Source of the DNA: a virus
Virus record (IMG/VR): IMGVR_UViG_3300010148_000106
Span: 1-24,900 of that record
Length of the DNA stretch: 24,900 bases
Direction: 5' to 3' (one strand)
Position 1 is the stretch's first letter. Every line of letters begins with the position of its first letter. Position numbers and translations under genes: made by a program. This document shows positions 779-21,487 of this stretch, one piece after another. The notes under the pieces were generated by a model, which was not told where the DNA came from, did not search any database, and saw nothing but the letters and a program-made list of their open reading frames with translations.

Positions 779-800
779 AAAAATGCTGTAATTTTATGAA
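772..800 (+). promoter_or_regulatory. Weak promoter candidate for the rightward block
   Basis: TTGCAA (772-777) and TATGAA (795-800) are separated by 17 bases, each matching four of six sigma-70 consensus positions. The overlapping TAATTTTA (789-796) also matches the Bacteroidota -7 box TAnnTTTG at all but the last position, although the distance from the upstream TTTG is short for that class. It lies about 65 bases before the first rightward gene. In such A+T-rich DNA matches of this quality arise by chance, so this is only a candidate. Confidence 0.22.
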
Positions 801-849
801 TATGTTAACGCTCTATATATGAGAAATTCGTAGTAAACAGGGTATTTTT

Positions 850-865
850 TTATGAAATTTGCAAT
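850..865 (+). repeat. Copy 2 of the 16-base direct repeat
   Basis: TTATGAAATTTGCAAT is the partner of the copy at 763-778. Its ATG (852) opens an eight-codon frame, MKFAIWQK, ending in TGA at 876-878 and overlapping the start of the 38-residue gene at 866. Both copies therefore precede an eight-codon mini-frame beginning Met-x-Phe-Ala. Whether either is translated cannot be judged from the sequence. Confidence 0.4.
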
Positions 866-982
866 ATGGCAGAAATGATAGCTTTAGGATTATTCACTTA
901 CTTCGCTGTATTCTTTGCTATAATCGGTATCTTGTACGATATGAGGCGTAATAGTAAAAAGAATGGCAAAAAGGAGGATTAA
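866..982 (+). CDS. Small single-pass membrane protein, 38 residues
   Basis: ATG at 866 to TAA at 980-982 encodes 38 residues. Residues about 4-24 form one uninterrupted hydrophobic segment (ALGLFTYFAVFFAIIGIL), followed by a short strongly basic tail containing Arg27, Arg28 and several Lys. The positive-inside rule predicts an outside N-terminus and cytoplasmic C-terminus. Size and topology fit very small phage holin-like or accessory membrane proteins. A lipoprotein gene follows 19 bases later, which makes a lysis-related pair conceivable, but no family is recognised. The start codon overlaps an eight-codon mini-frame beginning at 852. An AAGGAGG sequence inside its 3' end (971-977) resembles a ribosome-binding site, unusual in a genome that otherwise lacks them. 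Confidence 0.5.
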   Translation: MAEMIALGLFTYFAVFFAIIGILYDMRRNSKKNGKKED

Positions 983-1001
983 GTTAGGAAGGTCGGCAAG
1001 T

Positions 1002-1139
1002 ATGCCATACATGCAAAGGTTCTGTATACTTGCTACTTTCTTATCTTTACTAGGATCTTGTGTTAGTTATAAAAGACCAGCTAGTTATTATCAGCCTAGT
1101 AAGCCTATAGAATGTTTTTGTGATGAAAATGATATGTAA
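1002..1139 (+). CDS. Small lipoprotein upstream of terL, 45 residues (possible outer spanin)
   Basis: The frame from ATG 1002 (or the in-frame ATG 1011) to TAA 1137-1139 encodes 45 residues. The N-terminus is a lipoprotein signal peptide: Arg6, a hydrophobic core, then a lipobox Leu17-Gly18-Ser19-Cys20. Cleavage and lipidation at Cys20 would leave a 26-residue mature peptide rich in Ser, Tyr and Pro with two further Cys (ECFC). There is no acidic cluster just after the lipidated Cys, of the kind linked to surface export of Bacteroidota lipoproteins, so a periplasm-facing position is more likely. Tiny Pro-containing lipoproteins are typical of phage outer spanins, but no inner spanin with a periplasmic coiled coil is visible next to it. 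Its stop overlaps the terL start by one base (TAATG). AGGAAGG at 986-992 is a possible ribosome-binding site. Confidence 0.55.
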   Translation: MPYMQRFCILATFLSLLGSCVSYKRPASYYQPSKPIECFCDENDM

Positions 1140-3004
1140 TGAAAAAAGAAACAAGGGGTCGTAAGAGGAATAGAAATTCCGTTTATCAGCCTATAATGAC
1201 AGAGGGTATACCTAAGATGCAGGAGTGGGAGAAGGAGTATCAGGAGTTCTGGAAAACGCAGTTACATAGATGCATACATGGATACAAGCCACATGGACAT
1301 GCACATATACCTGGAAGGTATTATTTTTATTTAAACTTTGTTAAGTTTCCTACAGCCTTTGGCGGAAGTTCCAGAAAGGTTATGGATTTTCCGTTTTATA
1401 GGGATATAGATCACGAGTACTTTCAGAAGATAGAAGAGTGCAAAGAGCAGGGTAAGGGCTTAATAGTTTTAAAGGCTAGGCGGAAAGGTATGAGTATGAA
1501 CAATGTTGGGGGTATCTGTTTGTATGACTTGACTATACAGAAGGATGTTAATATGGGTGTAGGTTGTTATCTGGAGGATGATGTTTTGGAGTTTAGAAGA
1601 AAATTTGAGAATCTATATAGTCAGTTACCGCAATATATGGTGCAGAATAGAGTGGCAGATAACAAGGATGAAATATCGTTTGGGCGAAAAATGCCTGACG
1701 GCATTATTAAGGGGTCAAGGAATACAATATACTTTAAACACTTTTACAATAACTCAGGTGCGTTTAGGGGTACGTCTTTAGACTTTCTATTGTTTGAGGA
1801 GGCAGGTGAAAACTTAAACTTGTTAAATAGCTTTTTAGTTTCTGAGGAATGTTTTAAAGAGGGATCTTATCAGTTTGGTACGCCTATTATATTTGGAACG
1901 TCTAACCAAATTAATAATGGATTAAAGGATTTAGAGGAGCTATGGTTTAATAGTGATAAGTATAATTTAGATACATACTTTGTTTCTGCGGCTAAAGCTT
2001 ACTATCCTTTCTTTGATATAAGAACTGGTAAGTCTGCTACGCAAGAAGCTACTGATGATATAATGAGCAGAAGAAAGCAGAAGAAAGAATTACAAGACAA
2101 GAGGGCATACTTTACATACTTACAAGAGATGCCATTAAAGGACAGCGATTGCTTTATTGCTGGTGCTAGTAGTGTCTTTAACTTGGAGCTAGTACACGAT
2201 CAGTTAGAGTTCTTAATGGATAATAAACGAGAAGCTGGCAAGGTAATGAGGGGTAGCCTAGAATGGGATTCTAATGCAGAAGGGGATATATTAACACATA
2301 GCGTTACTTGGGTTCCTAATAAGGATGGTAAGATGAAGATGTTATTACCGCCATTAGATGAGAATCCATATGTAGATGTAGGTGGGGTGGATCCATACTA
2401 TAAAGATCAATCGGCAACATCTGACTCGTTAGGCTCATTACATATTCATAGAGGCGTATATAGCACTAATGAAGAAGACGAACTTCCTATATTTGAATAT
2501 GTAGATAGACCAAAACAAGGTAAAGAAGAGTGGTATGAGAATTGTGCTAAAGTAGCTGTGTTTTATAACTGTCAGTTACTGGTAGAGGATACAGATGAAG
2601 AGTTCTTTAAGTGGTTCAAACATCATGGTTTTGCCAAATATTTAAAAAGATCTCCTGTTGTTTATAAGAGTTTATATAGTAAAGCGGCTAACCAATATGG
2701 ATACAATATGTCAGGTCAAGGGCGTAAAATAAAGCTTATAGATACCGTTAATGAGTATATAAATAAATATTCACATAAAATATATTTCAAGGAATTATTA
2801 AAGGAATTTACTATATTTGGTGTAAAGAACACCGATAGAGTAATGAGCTTTGGTCTAGCACTAATACATAGTAAAGACAATTCATTCTTGAGATTACAAG
2901 AAATAAAAGAGGAAAATACAGAGGCTATGCAGTTTCCTGTGTTTACAAATAAAATGAAAAAGCTTAATCGTAAGAACATTTTTAACATTTATAACAAGCT
3001 ATGA
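1139..3004 (+). CDS. terL: Terminase large subunit
   Basis: This is the ATP-driven motor and nuclease that cuts concatemeric DNA and pumps it through the portal. The 621 residues have the usual two-domain plan. In the N-terminal ATPase the Walker A-like P-loop is KARRKGMS (about 112-119), a variant loop with Met in place of the usual Lys before Ser. Walker B is FLLFEEA (216-222), with Glu220/221 as catalytic candidates, and the coupling motif is GTS (253-255). In the C-terminal RNase H-like nuclease, Asp418 in GVDPYY, Glu483/Asp484 in LLVEDTD and Asp566 in NTDRVMSFGLAL are the expected metal ligands. Length and motif spacing fit a full-length TerL. It is preceded by a one-base overlap with the lipoprotein gene and followed by a four-base ATGA overlap. 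No small terminase gene is recognised nearby. Confidence 0.93.
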   Translation: MKKETRGRKRNRNSVYQPIMTEGIPKMQEWEKEYQEFWKTQLHRCIHGYKPHGHAHIPGRYYFYLNFVKFPTAFGGSSRKVMDFPFYRDIDHEYFQKIEECKEQGKGLIVLKARRKGMSMNNVGGICLYDLTIQKDVNMGVGCYLEDDVLEFRRKFENLYSQLPQYMVQNRVADNKDEISFGRKMPDGIIKGSRNTIYFKHFYNNSGAFRGTSLDFLLFEEAGENLNLLNSFLVSEECFKEGSYQFGTPIIFGTSNQINNGLKDLEELWFNSDKYNLDTYFVSAAKAYYPFFDIRTGKSATQEATDDIMSRRKQKKELQDKRAYFTYLQEMPLKDSDCFIAGASSVFNLELVHDQLEFLMDNKREAGKVMRGSLEWDSNAEGDILTHSVTWVPNKDGKMKMLLPPLDENPYVDVGGVDPYYKDQSATSDSLGSLHIHRGVYSTNEEDELPIFEYVDRPKQGKEEWYENCAKVAVFYNCQLLVEDTDEEFFKWFKHHGFAKYLKRSPVVYKSLYSKAANQYGYNMSGQGRKIKLIDTVNEYINKYSHKIYFKELLKEFTIFGVKNTDRVMSFGLALIHSKDNSFLRLQEIKEENTEAMQFPVFTNKMKKLNRKNIFNIYNKL

Positions 3005-3519
3005 CTACGCATTTAGAAGTAAATCAAAGCATAGAAGGGTTAGATATTACCGATAAATTTTTTCTGGCTGTGCCAGAATTTAAGAAAGTTATAGACAAAT
3101 ATGATTCGTCTGTAATGATCTTTGTCGTATGTTTGTATGATTACTGGTCGCCATATAGAAATTTAGAATATGATGAACGTGTAATAATTGTATCGCAAGA
3201 TATAATGGGTGATAAAAATGCACACAAAAAACTTTTAAAAGAAGAAACGATAAAAATAGCGGCAAAAAAATATAGAGATTTACAGTATGATCCAATCTTG
3301 GATAGCTATACAGTAATATCTAAAAAAGTCAAAATCATGAATGAAGTTATAGATATGCATGAAGTTGGCTTAGAAAATATAAAGAACCTACAAGACGCTA
3401 TTAAAGGCAATGAAAAGATTAATGAAATGATGATGAAGATGCAAGACCATATTAAGGACATGCAACGCAAATCTCCATTTAGGGGATTTAGCAATATTGA
3501 AGATTATCATAATTATTAA
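3001..3519 (+). CDS. Conserved-position protein between terL and portal, 172 residues
   Basis: The function is unknown. The gene sits between terL and the portal gene, starting on an ATGA overlap with terL and ending two bases before the portal start, so it is almost certainly translated together with packaging proteins. The N-terminal half looks like a compact mixed alpha/beta fold (FFLAVPEFKK, MIFVVCLYDYWSPYRNL). Residues about 105-160 are a long Met- and Lys-rich helical region likely to form a coiled coil (NEMMMKMQDHIKDMQRK). The position would suit a packaging accessory or a portal-associated protein, and a divergent small terminase cannot be excluded, but no DNA-binding motif is apparent. 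Confidence 0.75.
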   Translation: MTTHLEVNQSIEGLDITDKFFLAVPEFKKVIDKYDSSVMIFVVCLYDYWSPYRNLEYDERVIIVSQDIMGDKNAHKKLLKEETIKIAAKKYRDLQYDPILDSYTVISKKVKIMNEVIDMHEVGLENIKNLQDAIKGNEKINEMMMKMQDHIKDMQRKSPFRGFSNIEDYHNY

Positions 3520-3521
3520 CT

Positions 3522-5753
3522 ATGCTGCCAGACTTATATGTACCGAAGGGTAAACTTAAAATAGATGAATGGGTTAAAGATGTACACGATAGTATAGATT
3601 CATACTATAGTGGATACTATGACGATTTCAGAGAGAAAGATTTTGACAACTATAATGTTTTTAATGGCATTATAAATAAAGATCAATTTGAGTACGTTAC
3701 CGATACGTATAGCAATACCAACCCAGCTCGGTTAGTAAACTATCCAATAGTAAAAAAAGTTATTGACTTACTTGTAGGGGAATGGCTGGCAACGCCTATG
3801 GATCAATATAGCGTTGAGCTTGTAAATAAAGACGCTGTAGCACGTGAATTTGATAAAAAGGTAGGATTAGTATTTGAAAAATTAATAAAGCCTTACAGAA
3901 AAGAAATAGAAAAGATTGCAGATATAAATCTATACGATCATATGGGCATGGAAATACCTGACCATATAGACGTATTAGATAAAAATAATTATAGAGAAAA
4001 TACAGCAGAGGTAGTATATAATGCTATTCTTGATTTATCTAACAAATATGATTATAAGCAAATCTTTAAACAAGGATTGTATGACTTAGCTATTACTGGT
4101 AAACAATTCTTTAAGGTAGACATTGTCGGTAAAGATCCTACTATTAGAAGAATAGATCCTAGAAACATTATATACGATGTACATGTAGGAGAAGAAGACA
4201 TATCTAAGTCAGAATGGGTAGCGGAGCAGCGTTACATGACAGCATCAGAAATATTACATGAGTATAAACAAGATTTAACTAAAGATCAAAAATTAAGAGT
4301 AGCAGAGTTACGTCAGGCTAGTGAAGCGTTTATATCTCAAAACTTTGAAGACTATAGCAGGTGGTATAAATTTCATAATGGATATCTATCTCACATTAGA
4401 GTAGTAACTTGTGAATGGAGAGCTATAAAAACTAAAAAGGTAAAAGTATCTCCTAACAAATACAATCCAGACTATCCACATTATAAATTTTTACCTGATG
4501 GTTATAAGAAAAAACCAGGTGAAGATATTAGAGATTATGACTGCGTAGAAGTATGGGAGTCTACACGTATAGGCACAGAAATTATTACTAAAAGTAGACC
4601 TATTACAAACATAGTTCGTAGAGAAGAGTATGGGTATCAAGATGCTCCATTAAGCTACGTAGGATATGTACAGCATAATATAGATGGCAGAACCGTATCT
4701 TTTGTAGATATGATGAAGCAAGTAGCTATACTATATGATATTACTATGTATAATATAGAGCTAGTAATGCAACGTAGTGCTGGTAAAGCTGTTGTTTATG
4801 ATACAAGTCAAATCCCTGAAGGTTTAGAGTTAGATGATGTAATATACCAAGCAAAGAATCATGGGTTTATTTGGATTAATGCAAGTCAAGAAGGTAATCA
4901 ATTTAAAAATGGATTTAATCAATTTCAATCTATTGACTTTACTATGAGTAATAGTTTGACACAGTTGATTAATTTAAAAATGATGCTAGAGCAGTCTATT
5001 GAAATTATTACTGGTATTAACCAAGCACGTATGGGTATGATGCCTAACACATCATTAGTTGGTACTACAGAGTCAAAGATTGTTCAATCTTCTTATATAA
5101 CACAAAACTTTTATCAGAGTCATATAAGAACTATTGAAAAATGTTTAACTAGAACAGCTGACTTATTAAAAAAGTGCTGGGCAGGAGAAAAAAGATTTAT
5201 ATTTTCACTTGGCGATAAAGGCACTAAGTTTTTAGAATTAATGGCAGAAGAAGATTTATCATTAAATGATTACTCTATTTATATTAAGAACTCTCTTAAA
5301 GACCAACAAACTAAACAAAATATTGTCGGTCTTGCTGAAGCTGCTTTGCGTGGTGGGCAAATTAACTTCCTTGATCTTGTTAAAATACTTAATACTGATA
5401 CCGCTAAAGAAACTGAGCGTATTCTACAGAAAAGTATTGATGCTACTAAGGAGGCTAACCAAGCAATGCAACAACAACAAATGCAGATGCAACAAGCAGC
5501 AATGCAACAACAAGCGCAGGCTACACAAATGAAAGCACAAGCTCAAATGGATTCTAATAGATCAAGAGTCCAGGCAGCGCAAGTAGCAGCAGATGGTAAA
5601 GTGCGTGCTGAAGAAGTTGAGCAAGGAGGAAAAAAAGATTTTGAAGACCATAGATTTCAACGTGATTTAGACAGAATGGTTATGCAGGAAGATGGTATAC
5701 AGAAAAATGAAAATGAAAAAGAATTGATAGAATTAAAAGAAAATACAATTTAA
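3522..5753 (+). CDS. Portal protein
   Basis: The dodecameric portal forms the DNA entry and exit channel at one capsid vertex, docking TerL during packaging and the connector rings afterwards. The 743 residues fit the large portals of crAss-like and related podoviruses. Visible features are an acidic, Tyr-rich N-terminus, the segment NYPIVKKVIDLLVGEWL (about 73-89) typical of the early portal core, an IDPRNIIYD strand in the wing/clip region, and helical LMMLEQSIEII-like sequence near the crown side. From about residue 646 it becomes a Gln/Met/Ala-rich helical tail (QQQQMQMQQAAMQQQ) with charged coiled-coil character to the end, as often seen in the barrel/crown of this portal type. Order downstream of terL supports the call. 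The next gene is 50 bases away, the largest gap in the block. Confidence 0.85.
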   Translation: MLPDLYVPKGKLKIDEWVKDVHDSIDSYYSGYYDDFREKDFDNYNVFNGIINKDQFEYVTDTYSNTNPARLVNYPIVKKVIDLLVGEWLATPMDQYSVELVNKDAVAREFDKKVGLVFEKLIKPYRKEIEKIADINLYDHMGMEIPDHIDVLDKNNYRENTAEVVYNAILDLSNKYDYKQIFKQGLYDLAITGKQFFKVDIVGKDPTIRRIDPRNIIYDVHVGEEDISKSEWVAEQRYMTASEILHEYKQDLTKDQKLRVAELRQASEAFISQNFEDYSRWYKFHNGYLSHIRVVTCEWRAIKTKKVKVSPNKYNPDYPHYKFLPDGYKKKPGEDIRDYDCVEVWESTRIGTEIITKSRPITNIVRREEYGYQDAPLSYVGYVQHNIDGRTVSFVDMMKQVAILYDITMYNIELVMQRSAGKAVVYDTSQIPEGLELDDVIYQAKNHGFIWINASQEGNQFKNGFNQFQSIDFTMSNSLTQLINLKMMLEQSIEIITGINQARMGMMPNTSLVGTTESKIVQSSYITQNFYQSHIRTIEKCLTRTADLLKKCWAGEKRFIFSLGDKGTKFLELMAEEDLSLNDYSIYIKNSLKDQQTKQNIVGLAEAALRGGQINFLDLVKILNTDTAKETERILQKSIDATKEANQAMQQQQMQMQQAAMQQQAQATQMKAQAQMDSNRSRVQAAQVAADGKVRAEEVEQGGKKDFEDHRFQRDLDRMVMQEDGIQKNENEKELIELKENTI

Positions 5754-17184: not shown

Positions 17185-18722
17185 TGAGTAGTCTACCAGT
17201 ATATCAGTCGTTTGATGCTATAAAGCAAGCAGAAGATACAATAGCCAATAGAGAAGCTTTAGCAGCCGCAGGTTCAACTGCTGGATATGTTGCTGGAGGA
17301 ATAGGAGCAACGGCAGAACTAGCTTCTATGTTAGCTCCAGAAGGAAGTACAGCTAGTAATGTTTTAGAATATGGCTCTGGTGTTGCACAAACTGGTGTAG
17401 GTGTAGGTTTAACATTATCAGGAAATCCAATACAGGGTGTTCCTATGATATTACAAGGAGTAGGAGATATAGTAGGAACGGCAAAAAGCCAAAAATCAGA
17501 AAGAGAGCAAGAGGCTATAAGACAAGAACAAGAAAAACGTTTTTTACAAGCACAAAGCACAGCTCAGATAAATCCTTTATATGCAAAAGATGGAATGAAA
17601 GTTCCTAAAGATCCTTATAGTTATGCTGAAAATTATTTAGAGGATATTAAAATTCAAAATTTAAATTTACAACGATCTCAAGAAACTCCTGATGCTAGTA
17701 TTAATATGAATACTTATTCTAGATTGGGATACAATAGACCTTTTGAAAGAACACCAAATATTAAAGATATTGTTTCTGGCTTTACAGGCACTTTAGGAGT
17801 ACAAGGTCAAGGATACATGCCTTTAGGTGATATAGGTTCTGCTAATTTAGGATATGATGCTTCAGCTACATTATCTAGTCAAGGTTTATCTGGTCAAGGA
17901 AATATTAATTTATCAGCAGATATAAATCCTAATGATAGATTAAATATTGCTCCTTATGCTAATATTGGTATTAATTCTTTTGGAACAAATGTAGGTGGTG
18001 GCGTTAGAGCAACATACAATTTTGAAAATGGCGGTAAAGTAGATCCTCCTAAAAAAGAAATGACAAGGGCAGAAAGAGTTTACAATTTAATTGCTCCTAC
18101 TGGTTATACTGATTTGGGAAACTATGTAAACGCATTAAAAATAGATACTGATGAAGATGTTCCTTTAAGAACAGCAATGACAGATCCAAGAGGTGAAGAA
18201 ATGTATAAACAATATTTAGGAATAAATAAAGAATCTCAATATTTAAAACCTTCAAAATACAAACCTTCTAAAAGTAAAAATCCTAATGATCAATATTATT
18301 CTTTAGATGAAGAGTTTGAAAAATCAATAATATCATCATTAGTTGGTAATAGGTTAAAAGTAGGAGAAAGTAAAAATTTTAGCGAAATAGGAGATCTGCC
18401 AGGGGAATTTGATGAAAGTTATAAGCCTAAAAATATGAGAAGCAGTTATTATCCATATAATATCTGGTCAGGATTAGGAAATTTTACAGTTAGCAAAGGA
18501 TTAGATGAATCGGGAAATGAATATTATTCTTATTATGACAAATATGATTTTCCTGAATATATTCAAAAAGGAGCTTTAGGTGTTAGAGGCTTAGAAGGCA
18601 ATCCTTTTGAAATATATGGAAGAATACCAGCAGAAAAAATAGATAACTTTTATAGAAAAGTTTCTTTTAAAAATGGAGGAAAAGTTTCATATTTAGATCA
18701 ATTAGATATATTAACACAATGA
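17184..18722 (+). CDS. Virion-associated protein with Gly/Ala membrane-like and beta-hairpin segments
   Basis: The 512 residues show four regions. Residues about 28-100 are Gly/Ala-rich and hydrophobic, glycine-zipper-like (GSTAGYVAGGIGATAELASM). Residues about 103-125 are a charged helix. Residues about 200-280 contain successive alternating strands ending in aromatic residues (LNIAPYANIGINSFGTNVGG, then TYNF), resembling outer-membrane beta-hairpins. The C-terminal region has LGNFTVSKGL and NPFEIYGRIP, motifs I associate with large proteins of Bacteroidota phages. Short Gly-Gly-Lys-Val boxes follow the strand region (about 280-286) and sit near the end (about 495-501), and YAKDGMKV lies at 133-140. 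After the tail gene, with a cargo-like composition, it is likely an internal or tail-tip protein ejected into the envelope. It is linked to the next gene by ATGA. Confidence 0.55.
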   Translation: MSSLPVYQSFDAIKQAEDTIANREALAAAGSTAGYVAGGIGATAELASMLAPEGSTASNVLEYGSGVAQTGVGVGLTLSGNPIQGVPMILQGVGDIVGTAKSQKSEREQEAIRQEQEKRFLQAQSTAQINPLYAKDGMKVPKDPYSYAENYLEDIKIQNLNLQRSQETPDASINMNTYSRLGYNRPFERTPNIKDIVSGFTGTLGVQGQGYMPLGDIGSANLGYDASATLSSQGLSGQGNINLSADINPNDRLNIAPYANIGINSFGTNVGGGVRATYNFENGGKVDPPKKEMTRAERVYNLIAPTGYTDLGNYVNALKIDTDEDVPLRTAMTDPRGEEMYKQYLGINKESQYLKPSKYKPSKSKNPNDQYYSLDEEFEKSIISSLVGNRLKVGESKNFSEIGDLPGEFDESYKPKNMRSSYYPYNIWSGLGNFTVSKGLDESGNEYYSYYDKYDFPEYIQKGALGVRGLEGNPFEIYGRIPAEKIDNFYRKVSFKNGGKVSYLDQLDILTQ

Positions 18723-21487
18723 ATACTCAAAAATTACATGGAGCTAGACATAGCGAAGGCGGTATTAAAATAGAAGCTGAAGGTGGTGAAAGAATCTTTA
18801 GTAGAGAAGATACGGCAAAAATAGAATCATTATCTAAGCAAAATAAATTTGAAAAGCTAGGTAAGTTTATTAAGGGAGCTATGCAAACACAAGATAGTAG
18901 ACCTCCTATGTATGCTGAACAAGGCATGAAAGTATTTAATCAATACAATAATGAATTACCATTTGTGCTATCTCCTAAAGAAATGGAAACTTTAAATCAG
19001 TTTGCTGCAATGAATAATACAATGTCTTATGAACAGTTTATGGAAGCAGGTGGTAAAATAGCAAGCATAACTCAACAAATGATAAAAGCAAATCCTAATA
19101 ATGCTGCATTAAAGAATAATAACCCAGGAAATATAATGTATTATTCTAAAGATAAGCAAGGTAATTTAAGTAAAACTCCATCAGGATATGCTAAATATTT
19201 GTTAGATCAAGGATATGAAATTGAAGCAGGATCATCTAACCAAGATGGTCAGTTTATAAAATTTAAAAACTTAGAAGATGGCATGGCTGCTAAGTTAGGT
19301 TTTTGGAATTTTGTTACTTCAAAAAACACATATGGAGGTCAACCTGTAGATGGCATGACTTTAGATGAGGCTTTATCTTTATATAGTAATGCAGGTTATA
19401 CTGCTAAAGATTTAGGTTTAGGAGAATTTGCAGATACATATATATCAGAAATAACACAAGATGTATGGAATAAAGTATCAGCAAACCAAATTAAAAGAGA
19501 AGATGGTGTAATGTATAAACATCTTTTTGGAACTTCTCAACCTAATGATATAGATTTTTCTAATTTTTCAACTACTCCTGTTCAAACCGAAACTCCTGTA
19601 AATCCTTTTGAAATAGAAGAAGGATTTAATATAGTTAATGCAAAAGGAGAAAAAATTGGAGAAGTAGAAAAAAGTCCTACGGTTAAACAAGAAAAAGAAA
19701 TTGAAACTACATTAGAAGCAGATACAGTAGGAAGTGAGGAATTAAAAGAAAAAGAAAAAAGAAATCTTGCATCTAAAGAAATAGGTAATCGGCAAAAACA
19801 AATAGAAGAATTAGAAAAAGAAAAACAAAAGTATTCTGATCAAATAAAAGGTACAACTACAGCATCTCCAGAACATCGTAAGGCATCTCGTTTAAAACAA
19901 AATGTAGAAGATCAAATTAAACAGTTGCAAGATGAAATAGATTATTTAGGTAGTCCTATACATTCTACAGCTTCTGGAAAAATTTATGGTAGCATAACAG
20001 ATGAAGATAGAAAACTAGCTAATGAATCATTAAAGCAAGAATTTGAAGATTTTTATTATGCAGATGAATCTAAAGTAAATAGAAGAACAGGTTTTGGTGA
20101 CGATACCGAAAACACTAAATTACTTTATGATAAAATTCGTAAAAGAATAGCTGACTCTGATTCATTTAAAAATAAAAACTTATCAAAAGAAGACGCTGAT
20201 TTTCTTTTAGACGCTTTAACGTCTGAAGCGTTTATGTCTTTAGAGGGTAGTGGAGAAGAAATTATTAAAAATGTATTAGGAATAGAAGATACTAAACTTC
20301 AAGATACACAGCTAGAAGATTTATTACAGGATGACAGAGGAAAAAATGTATCGTTAGCTTCTACTAATAAAGCTTATAATGAGTTTAGAAATCAATATAT
20401 TAATCCTCGTACTGGCAAACAAGCTAAATATCAACAAGACATAAATAAAACTTTAAATTTAGTTTCTCCAAGTCAAGATAATCTTACAGCTACAGGAGCT
20501 GCTGTAGATCCTAATAAAGTACCTAGTGGACAACAAGTACAATTAGCCGCTCAAAAAATATCTCCTGTTAAAAAACAAGATGAAGAAGATAAGGCAGCAC
20601 AAGCAATGCAAATTGCAGCTAAAAAAGCAGAAGATGATGCTAATAAAGATTTTCTTCAATCATTAAAAGATTATGATCCTAGTTTTACTGGAGAGGCTAC
20701 AACAACTTATGAAGATTTATTTCAAGATGATAGAACTACTGGTCAAAAGTTTAGACAATCATTATTAGATAATGCTGTTAATATCGCACAAGTAGTAGGC
20801 GGTATTAAGGGTGCGGCAGAGCCAATGCCAAGATTTATGATAAGTCAAGAACTTATAGATCAAGCTAAAAATTTAAATCAAAGAGCGCAAACAGGATTAA
20901 CGGCAGAAGAAAAATCTAAAATGCTTAGTGATGCTACAGATGCTGAAAGGTCAGCTATGAACGCTATGACTAAAAGTGGATTATCTAGTGGTCAAATATT
21001 AGGTATAGCACCACAATTGCAACGGCAAACACAAAAGCAAAAACTTAATATAGATATATTAGACCAAAAAACTAGAGAGCGTTATGAAGATAAGGCTATG
21101 AATATGCAAAAGTATTTAAATGACCTTAGATATCGTACTCAGTTTATGCCAGACTATCAAGAAACACAACAACGTACTCAAGCCGCAGCACAAACTGCAC
21201 AGGCTGGAATACAAGGCTTTCAAGATTATATGGGTTATCAAAGAACTTTTGGAGAAGGTACTCCTTACCAAGCTTTACAAGAAGCTACAATTAAAAATAT
21301 AATTTCTAATGTAAGAGCTGGAGAAATGGCTACTAGCGCAAATATGCAACAAGCTGATTTTATAGATCAACAAAATCAAGCAATAGCAAGTTTTCAAGCT
21401 ATGAGTCCTGACCAACAAAAAGCATTTAGAGATAATCAATCAGGAAAAACACAAGAAGAAATATTACAAGCATTAATAAATCCATAA
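18719..21487 (+). CDS. Large virion protein with a peptidoglycan-hydrolase-like domain
   Basis: The 922-residue protein begins with HSEGGIKIEAEGGERIFS (about 11-28), a Gly-Gly motif I recall from large proteins of crAss-like phages, and YAEQGMKV (65-72), which also occurs in variant form in the upstream protein. Residues about 110-270 look like a virion-associated lysozyme or transglycosylase segment: NNNPGNI (133-139), FKNLEDGMAAKLGFW (182-196) and MTLDEALSLYSNAGY (213-227) follow the usual order. A catalytic Glu at the expected distance is not obvious (Glu109 is the nearest upstream). Residues about 338-411 form a coiled coil, and the last 200 are Gln-rich helices. It probably travels in the virion and locally opens the cell wall at infection. 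It starts on a four-base overlap with the upstream gene. Confidence 0.55.
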   Translation: MNTQKLHGARHSEGGIKIEAEGGERIFSREDTAKIESLSKQNKFEKLGKFIKGAMQTQDSRPPMYAEQGMKVFNQYNNELPFVLSPKEMETLNQFAAMNNTMSYEQFMEAGGKIASITQQMIKANPNNAALKNNNPGNIMYYSKDKQGNLSKTPSGYAKYLLDQGYEIEAGSSNQDGQFIKFKNLEDGMAAKLGFWNFVTSKNTYGGQPVDGMTLDEALSLYSNAGYTAKDLGLGEFADTYISEITQDVWNKVSANQIKREDGVMYKHLFGTSQPNDIDFSNFSTTPVQTETPVNPFEIEEGFNIVNAKGEKIGEVEKSPTVKQEKEIETTLEADTVGSEELKEKEKRNLASKEIGNRQKQIEELEKEKQKYSDQIKGTTTASPEHRKASRLKQNVEDQIKQLQDEIDYLGSPIHSTASGKIYGSITDEDRKLANESLKQEFEDFYYADESKVNRRTGFGDDTENTKLLYDKIRKRIADSDSFKNKNLSKEDADFLLDALTSEAFMSLEGSGEEIIKNVLGIEDTKLQDTQLEDLLQDDRGKNVSLASTNKAYNEFRNQYINPRTGKQAKYQQDINKTLNLVSPSQDNLTATGAAVDPNKVPSGQQVQLAAQKISPVKKQDEEDKAAQAMQIAAKKAEDDANKDFLQSLKDYDPSFTGEATTTYEDLFQDDRTTGQKFRQSLLDNAVNIAQVVGGIKGAAEPMPRFMISQELIDQAKNLNQRAQTGLTAEEKSKMLSDATDAERSAMNAMTKSGLSSGQILGIAPQLQRQTQKQKLNIDILDQKTRERYEDKAMNMQKYLNDLRYRTQFMPDYQETQQRTQAAAQTAQAGIQGFQDYMGYQRTFGEGTPYQALQEATIKNIISNVRAGEMATSANMQQADFIDQQNQAIASFQAMSPDQQKAFRDNQSGKTQEEILQALINP

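Follow-up and report, generated by a model that had tools for sequence, protein, structure and literature searches.

The described phages closest to the locus studied here are the crAss-like phages of the Crassvirales. The window, by which we mean the whole 24.9-kb linear virus record that was analysed, resembles them in that its TerL, portal and major head protein matched head-and-packaging PHROG families by profile, and in that the TerL matches listed are mostly to crAss-like phages. TerL matched 166 phage records, all at less than 60% identity, from Flavobacterium (73), uncultured phages (43), Bacteroides (27), Cellulophaga (10) and others. Where the window departs from these phages is in distance: the best 60 of the 166 matches, mostly crAss-like, share 21-27% identity with its TerL, and its near relatives are IMG/VR contigs. 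Three such contigs carry a near terL, namely L001, from the same species, and L002 and L004, whose TerL is 83% identical.

Small genes with one transmembrane segment or a lipobox are familiar from the holins and spanins of phage lysis, and the sequence-only reading of this DNA had proposed that two tiny genes directly before terL form a minimal lysis or envelope pair of this kind, a holin-like membrane protein with an outer-spanin-like lipoprotein. The two open reading frames (ORFs) in the window share these features; they differ from holin and spanin genes in that no lysis neighbour was recognised, the lipoprotein is not conserved and the membrane ORF has no room for a periplasmic coiled coil. 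The same interval also folds into an RNA hairpin, for which intrinsic (Rho-independent) terminators and phage non-coding RNAs are the nearest comparisons. The loops of ordinary intrinsic terminators are free; the element described here is like them in that a U-run directly follows the stem, or a capsid-type gene precedes it, in part of its members, and unlike them in its fixed 18-nt tip, its varying stem and the lack of a U-run in the window and in L004. Skipping-rope is among the non-coding RNAs reported from phage sequences (PMC8501573), and a literature search, which included PMC10136315, listed no description of the present element. It is apparently an undescribed phage RNA element, and as such of more interest than a lysis gene pair. 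The features of the region are as follows.

788-870, plus strand: leader block just before the membrane ORF, conserved in all three of the window, L002 and L004 by alignment
866-982, plus strand: single-pass membrane ORF of 38 aa with a basic C-terminal tail (MAEMIALGLFTYFAVFFAIIGILYDMRRNSKKNGKKED), with conserved counterparts in L002 and L004
987-1041, plus strand: RNA hairpin by folding, with a 7-bp outer stem, a bulged base at 994, an 11-bp stem, a 3x3 internal loop, 2 bp and an 8-nt loop
1002-1139, plus strand: lipobox ORF of 45 aa (MPYMQRFCILATFLSLLGSCVSYKRPASYYQPSKPIECFCDENDM), an open frame that is not conserved
1006-1023, plus strand: conserved 18-nt tip (CATACATGCAAAGGTTCT / CAUACAUGCAAANGUUCU; family form CATACATGCAAANGTTCT) that recurs in other phages
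1139-3004, plus strand: terL, crAss-like terminase large subunit (phrog_6681, E 6.2e-71; matches in 166 phage records)

A hairpin with a constant tip before terL

Between the membrane ORF and terL, positions 985-1041 fold at -22.0 kcal/mol (z -4.16), and none of 200 shuffles was as stable. The tip comprises a 3x3 internal loop CAU/YCU, two pairs R-C/G-Y and the octaloop AUGCAAAN. In a by-eye comparison, L004 has the same loop with differing arms around it, and it folds into the same shape of long stem, 3x3 internal loop, two pairs and octaloop (L004 290-375, z -3.13, 1 of 200 shuffles as stable; 303-350 alone, z -1.69, 12 of 200). The element is absent from L002, although the TerL encoded there is as close to that of the window as is the TerL of L004. 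The hairpin itself is well supported, and its function we infer below.

A first scan of IMG/VR with the loop pattern returned five stretches, and progressively wider pattern scans defined the motif CATACATGCAAANGTTCT, with C commonest at position 13. In another phage, represented by L011 and L013, the same hairpin shape stands on a third stem; L012 is a chance match without the hairpin shape (z 0.40). Altogether the 18-mer was found in IMG/VR in 22 distinct contexts, 21 of them in hairpins. The closing stem had at least six pairs in 11 contexts, three to five in 3 and fewer in 8; among the 11 contexts with fewer than six closing pairs, 10 had, within 9 nt, an outer helix with seven or more pairs, whereas one, L146, had neither. 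Closing stems of at least six pairs were seen in none of 48 control contexts with a mismatched inner pair (10 of which had three to five pairs), none of 39 with other changed letters, none of 5 (7 loci) with the first or last letter changed, and none of 26 bacterial-genome contexts of a related pattern, in which the maximum was two pairs and R was specified at position 13, so that the canonical C form lay outside that pattern. The background for the outer-helix criterion was 6 of 48, 1 of 39 and 4 of 26 contexts for mismatched inner pairs, other changes and bacterial genomes, respectively. Two of the 26 bacterial contexts, in the contigs L028 and L047, carry the exact 18-mer without a hairpin.

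The inner pair itself varied. Both contexts with a G-U pair there have stems (L233 and L271), while the five with G-C comprise one with at least six closing pairs (L004), two with an outer helix (L218 and L229) and two without a hairpin (L197 and L206). No hairpins were found where the first inner pair was C-G (0 of 8), U-A (0 of 4) or U-G (0 of 6), 18 contexts in all. Together with the two G-C contexts that lack a hairpin, this indicates that the inner pair is not freely exchangeable, with A-U, G-C and G-U being tolerated. Neither of two contexts that combined an A-U inner pair with C at position 16 had a stem.

Variants that differed in the first, the sixth or the last letter, or at the end of the octaloop, were taken as chance, since they had no six-pair closing stems, and L012, L018, L019, L146, L197, L206 and the 26 bacterial-genome contexts were left out because they had no hairpin. 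Four near-identical contigs, the L095 group, in which the motif lies inside a coding sequence that we read as radical-SAM-like, were kept in the counts though they are possibly chance matches. Including compensated forms, the carriers of the element are 41 IMG/VR contigs and the window record, a number made up of hairpin-bearing contexts and their duplicates. Exactly one copy was present in 36 of 38 records, with no further copy at up to two mismatches; the exceptions were the record of L002, which has none, and that of L004, which has a variant form. In the phage collection no record matched the whole canonical 18-mer carrying C at position 13, a search in which other letters at that position are undetectable, and plasmids gave no match to this form either. 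Tandem tip-like copies, CATGCATGCAAATGTTCT followed by GCG or GTG at a spacing of 21 or 42 nt and without the motif-type closing stem, were seen in a Phycisphaeraceae assembly, in L042 (minus strand, about 3050-3220) and L043 (1030-1200).

Comparison of the members showed a constant tip carried on varying stems. Across the 13 members of type A, 85.2% of 169 cells pair and both sides change in 12 of the 13 pairs, a count biased by the choice of these members for having stems, so that the classing of contexts described above is the less biased test. Covariation in this set was 0.804, whereas shuffles gave 0.252 and slid controls did not exceed 0.304. Among the nine members of type B, pairing holds in 98.1% of 108 cells, and both sides change in 7 of 12 pairs; further pair types in this alignment did not exceed shuffles (13 versus 13.2; 359 of 500). 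When 24 members were taken together, the two innermost closing pairs and the inner helix paired in 100% of 96 cells, the inner pair being A-U in 19, G-C in 3 and G-U in 2. The window copy has the 18-nt tip, the inner 2-bp helix and the closing stem by which the family is recognised. The G-U pairs and U-runs of the members point to RNA as the form in which the element acts. The type-B members (L103, L015, L089, L121, L127, L151, L229, L131 and L020) have a second internal loop in common, GAAA versus GAGUAA or similar, which partly resembles loop E (AGUA/GAA); readings of this loop as a kink-turn or a hammerhead were weighed and not adopted.

We built a covariance model, R1, from the 13 type-A members, the window among them. 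It scored the window at 51.9 bits and the members then compared at no less than 28 bits, including type-B members that had not been used in building it, and the best non-member was L028 at 27.2 bits. On the reference phage loci L005-L010 and L048-L052, R1 found nothing at E values up to 5. When the window and nine loci were scanned against Rfam at permissive thresholds, no match came close to a gathering score; the best over the window hairpin was MIR535 at 16.6 bits, compared to a gathering score of 64. The covariance model of skipping-rope (RF02924) matched none of 26 records tested, a result that does not prove absence because the control genomes gave no signal either. Identity with a known RNA family was set aside on the outcome of these scans.

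Genomic contexts of the hairpin family

Ten of the 26 distinct members lie 25-40 nt downstream of a capsid-type gene. In L015 this gene is related to annotated structural proteins of Flavobacterium, Cellulophaga and Maribacter phages and in L020 to major capsid proteins of phages from many hosts, whereas the remaining capsid-type genes were assigned by reading the sequence, not by search. The copy in L136 follows a gene for a 316-aa protein related to Nonlabens phage proteins. In 11 of the 26 distinct members a U-run starts immediately after the stem. No U-run follows the stem in the window or in L004, where the element is placed before terL, and a terminator role therefore does not cover these copies. 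In three relatives, the environmental L048 and the isolates L049 and L050, short and unlike terminator loops occupy the same place after the capsid-type gene.

The copy in L016 adjoins a terminase gene on the opposite strand, and that in L156 runs antisense to the genes beside it. Each has a TAnnTTTG box located 21-24 nt before the tip, together with a second hairpin that has a U-run. TAnnTTTG is the -7 consensus of Bacteroidota, and its presence in 2 of 26 members, compared to about 0.7 expected (2.7% of windows), is not clearly above background. In L091, L233 and L271, which form one related group, TTGACA-N17-TAGTAT lies just upstream (background 0.2%), and L091 has a second long hairpin of about 17 pairs after the tip hairpin. 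The RNAs of L016, L156 and L091 comprise two hairpins and are apparently free-standing. The sigma70-like box together with the tip hairpin spans L091:2005-2160 and L233:200-345 and lies around 4400-4600 on the minus strand of L271.

The two small open reading frames

The 38-residue membrane ORF is present where the sequence-only reading had placed a membrane gene, and counterparts occupy the same place before terL in both related lineages, one of 41 aa in L002 (1038-1163), the stop of which lies inside terL, and one of 39 aa in L004 (193-312). In all three, a single hydrophobic segment is followed by a basic tail, with a computed mean hydropathy over residues 4-23 of 2.46-2.60. The balance of nonsynonymous and synonymous change, named beforehand as a check on both frames, was examined by the Nei-Gojobori method over the first 28 codons in three pairwise comparisons. 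It favoured the membrane ORF in both comparisons with the window (pN 0.44 versus pS 0.68 for L002; 0.35 versus 0.90 for L004) and was equal between L002 and L004 (0.32 versus 0.32, or 0.32 versus 0.26 over 23 codons). In the same three comparisons, terL gave pN 0.05-0.11 and pS 0.70-0.73. Two of the three comparisons, over few codons, thus support selection on the membrane protein, which is far weaker than the selection on terL. A family search matched the window ORF only, to phrog_29866 (unknown function) at E 0.0015, and gave nothing firm. As place, size and character are kept in L002 and L004, the ORF is probably a real gene that encodes a separate small phage membrane protein. With its small size and the transmembrane segment predicted from hydropathy, it is a possible holin candidate. 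No lysis families were recognised among the proteins scanned from the window, itself a genome fragment; in the crAss-like relative cr273_1, a gene annotated as endolysin lies directly before terL. In the crAss-like record L177 (TerL 37% identical), that place is taken by a 72-aa ORF that lacks a hydrophobic segment.

Upstream of the membrane ORF, the part of the leader block at 845-869 has a single occurrence in the window when as many as three mismatches are allowed, and shorter pieces of the block were not rarer than chance. The block at 788-870 could be the start region, perhaps a late promoter, of the terL transcription unit. Small divergent ORFs that point away from terL, one of them with a hydrophobic segment, lie on the minus strand of the window at 1-210 and 343-591, and a small hydrophobic ORF that differs from these is oriented alike in L002 (489-740, minus strand). 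Elsewhere in the window, a 922-aa ORF (18719-21487) with no PHROG match and no Pfam match above the cut-off contains an NNNPGN stretch reminiscent of virion-associated peptidoglycan hydrolases.

The lipobox ORF had been described accurately as a reading frame: open from ATG 963 to 1139 in a frame other than that of the membrane ORF, and 45 aa long when counted from ATG 1002, it contains the lipobox LGSC, 26 mature residues with C-F-C near the end, and a stop that overlaps the terL start in the sequence TAATG. Conservation of position before terL, which had been suggested as a check on both peptides, held for the membrane ORF in L002 and L004 and failed for the lipobox ORF. The latter is absent from L002, which has no room for it because terL overlaps the membrane ORF there, and the aligned place in L004 has an unlike 16-codon frame without a signal peptide; L001 is identical over the ORF and therefore uninformative. 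We also counted ORFs of 25-120 aa with a lipobox-like signal in 40 runs of a second-order Markov null, which gave about 0.25 per 24.9 kb, the same rate as in other loci (16 in 1.55 Mb). The window has two, the second being on the minus strand within the 3001-3519 gene region, and compared to this background the lipobox ORF is not clearly more than chance. It is probably no gene, or at most a species-specific one. An outer-spanin role is unlikely: the lipobox signal is there at the level of the pattern, with LGSC in frame, but no conserved gene was found in the related phages L002 and L004, and no inner-spanin partner with a periplasmic coiled coil is present, the membrane ORF ending in a short basic tail.

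Both candidate starts of the lipobox ORF, 1002 in the 5' arm and 1011 in the octaloop, lie inside the hairpin, and the frame looks good because there is an AUG in the loop and because translation of the U-rich 3' arm gives hydrophobic residues. Since the octaloop contains AUG, each of 25 members, including the window, can be read as MQ[TKRM], with continuations that differ between lineages and run from 5 to 171 codons; in the residues compared, only the frame in the window has a lipobox. Translation of the tip as MQ[TKRM] thus explains the start of the supposed lipoprotein. The variable tip letter, position 13, falls on the middle base of the third codon (T, K, R or M), and variation there is, in these sequences, the reverse of the pattern left by protein selection. 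A lipoprotein as a conserved gene was rejected for the lack of conservation and for an N-terminus that coincides with the RNA tip. The frame would be mainly a by-product of the RNA hairpin, a view that belongs to the explanation that we favour by a little overall. The earlier interpretation therefore survives in part, in that a small membrane gene before terL is likely, while the pairing of membrane protein and lipoprotein is not supported, as its second partner is missing from L002, not lipoprotein-like in L004 and begins with a translated RNA loop. The case is a warning that structured RNA can cast shadows in the form of small ORFs when these are called only from sequence.

Possible roles of the hairpin

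The combination of an invariant tip with freely varying stems is the hallmark of an RNA structure that is recognised. The best reading, which we consider somewhat better than even, is that of an RNA recognition hairpin that is bound by a conserved factor and tunes late-gene RNA. The tip, on its interchangeable stems, would act as the recognition site for a conserved partner, which would grip it and change what becomes of the RNA carrying it. Since the phages with the element are diverse, the simplest and most likely partner would be an RNA-binding factor of the host. At the 3' end of capsid-type messages, binding could affect RNA stability or termination, in the window and L004 it could affect terL accessibility, and the free-standing two-hairpin RNAs may possibly sequester the factor.

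Several other explanations have to be weighed against a recognition hairpin. The tip could be an antisense seed through which a trans-acting small RNA would pair with a conserved RNA of host or phage, as the apparently free-standing two-hairpin RNAs, the conservation of unpaired letters and the single copy per record would suggest. However, no partner with complementarity beyond shuffles was found on the motif-sense strand of 20 phage loci, these contigs being fragments, or in E. coli rRNA, and the tip is itself partly paired, so that a structural recognition site fits better and we regard a small RNA as rather unlikely. Translation from the loop AUG to the terL start could alternatively yield a leader peptide, with the hairpin and the short frame coupling terL translation to a signal. 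This reading is kept alive by the loop-AUG frame ending over the terL start in both the window (42 codons, TAATG) and L004 (16 codons, ATGA), and in L131 a frame of 15 codons ends directly before the ATG of the next gene. Yet the peptide is not conserved, because its third codon (T, K, R or M) has the free position 13 as second base, and the type-B members mostly read MQ[TKR]FS[ED], with the stop inside the terminator stem; a leader peptide seems distinctly improbable.

We consider it very unlikely that the locus is a two-gene lysis or envelope cassette of a holin-like protein and an outer-spanin-like lipoprotein. Both ORFs exist, one with the lipobox LGSC and the other conserved, and the endolysin annotation before terL in cr273_1 would suit such a cassette, but the failure of the lipoprotein frame in L002 and L004, its start inside the RNA hairpin, the rate at which lipobox ORFs arise by chance and the lack of a recognised lysis family among the proteins scanned from this fragment all argue against it. 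A site that acts at the DNA level, for example a packaging signal or recombination target in the form of a single-stranded hairpin, would be in keeping with one copy per record, often near terL or capsid-type genes, whereas the G-U pairs of the stems fit RNA, as does the U-run that directly follows the stem in 11 of the 26 distinct members, and the position of the element differs between phages; we give this reading very little credence. That an ordinary hairpin merely coincides with a chance 18-mer is scarcely credible, even though the exact 18-mer occurs without a hairpin in L146 and in the bacterial contigs L028 and L047, given hairpins in 21 of 22 viral contexts compared to no six-pair closing stem in any of the four control sets, and given compensated inner pairs.

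Taking the recognition hairpin as our preferred reading, we tentatively suggest, as something possible rather than probable, that diverse phages use one compact 18-nt module, once per genome, to trap a host partner that is conserved, either an RNA-binding factor or a ribonucleoprotein. This module would be set in capsid-gene terminators, in the terL leader or in free-standing two-hairpin RNAs, might serve host takeover or the evasion of RNA-based defence, and may represent a previously undescribed class of phage RNA. The occurrence of the element once per record in crAss-like phages, relatives of flavobacterial podoviruses, phages with a different major capsid protein and others suggests that many phages meet the same partner, and the identity of that partner would expose a shared host factor that is used, or countered, by these viruses.
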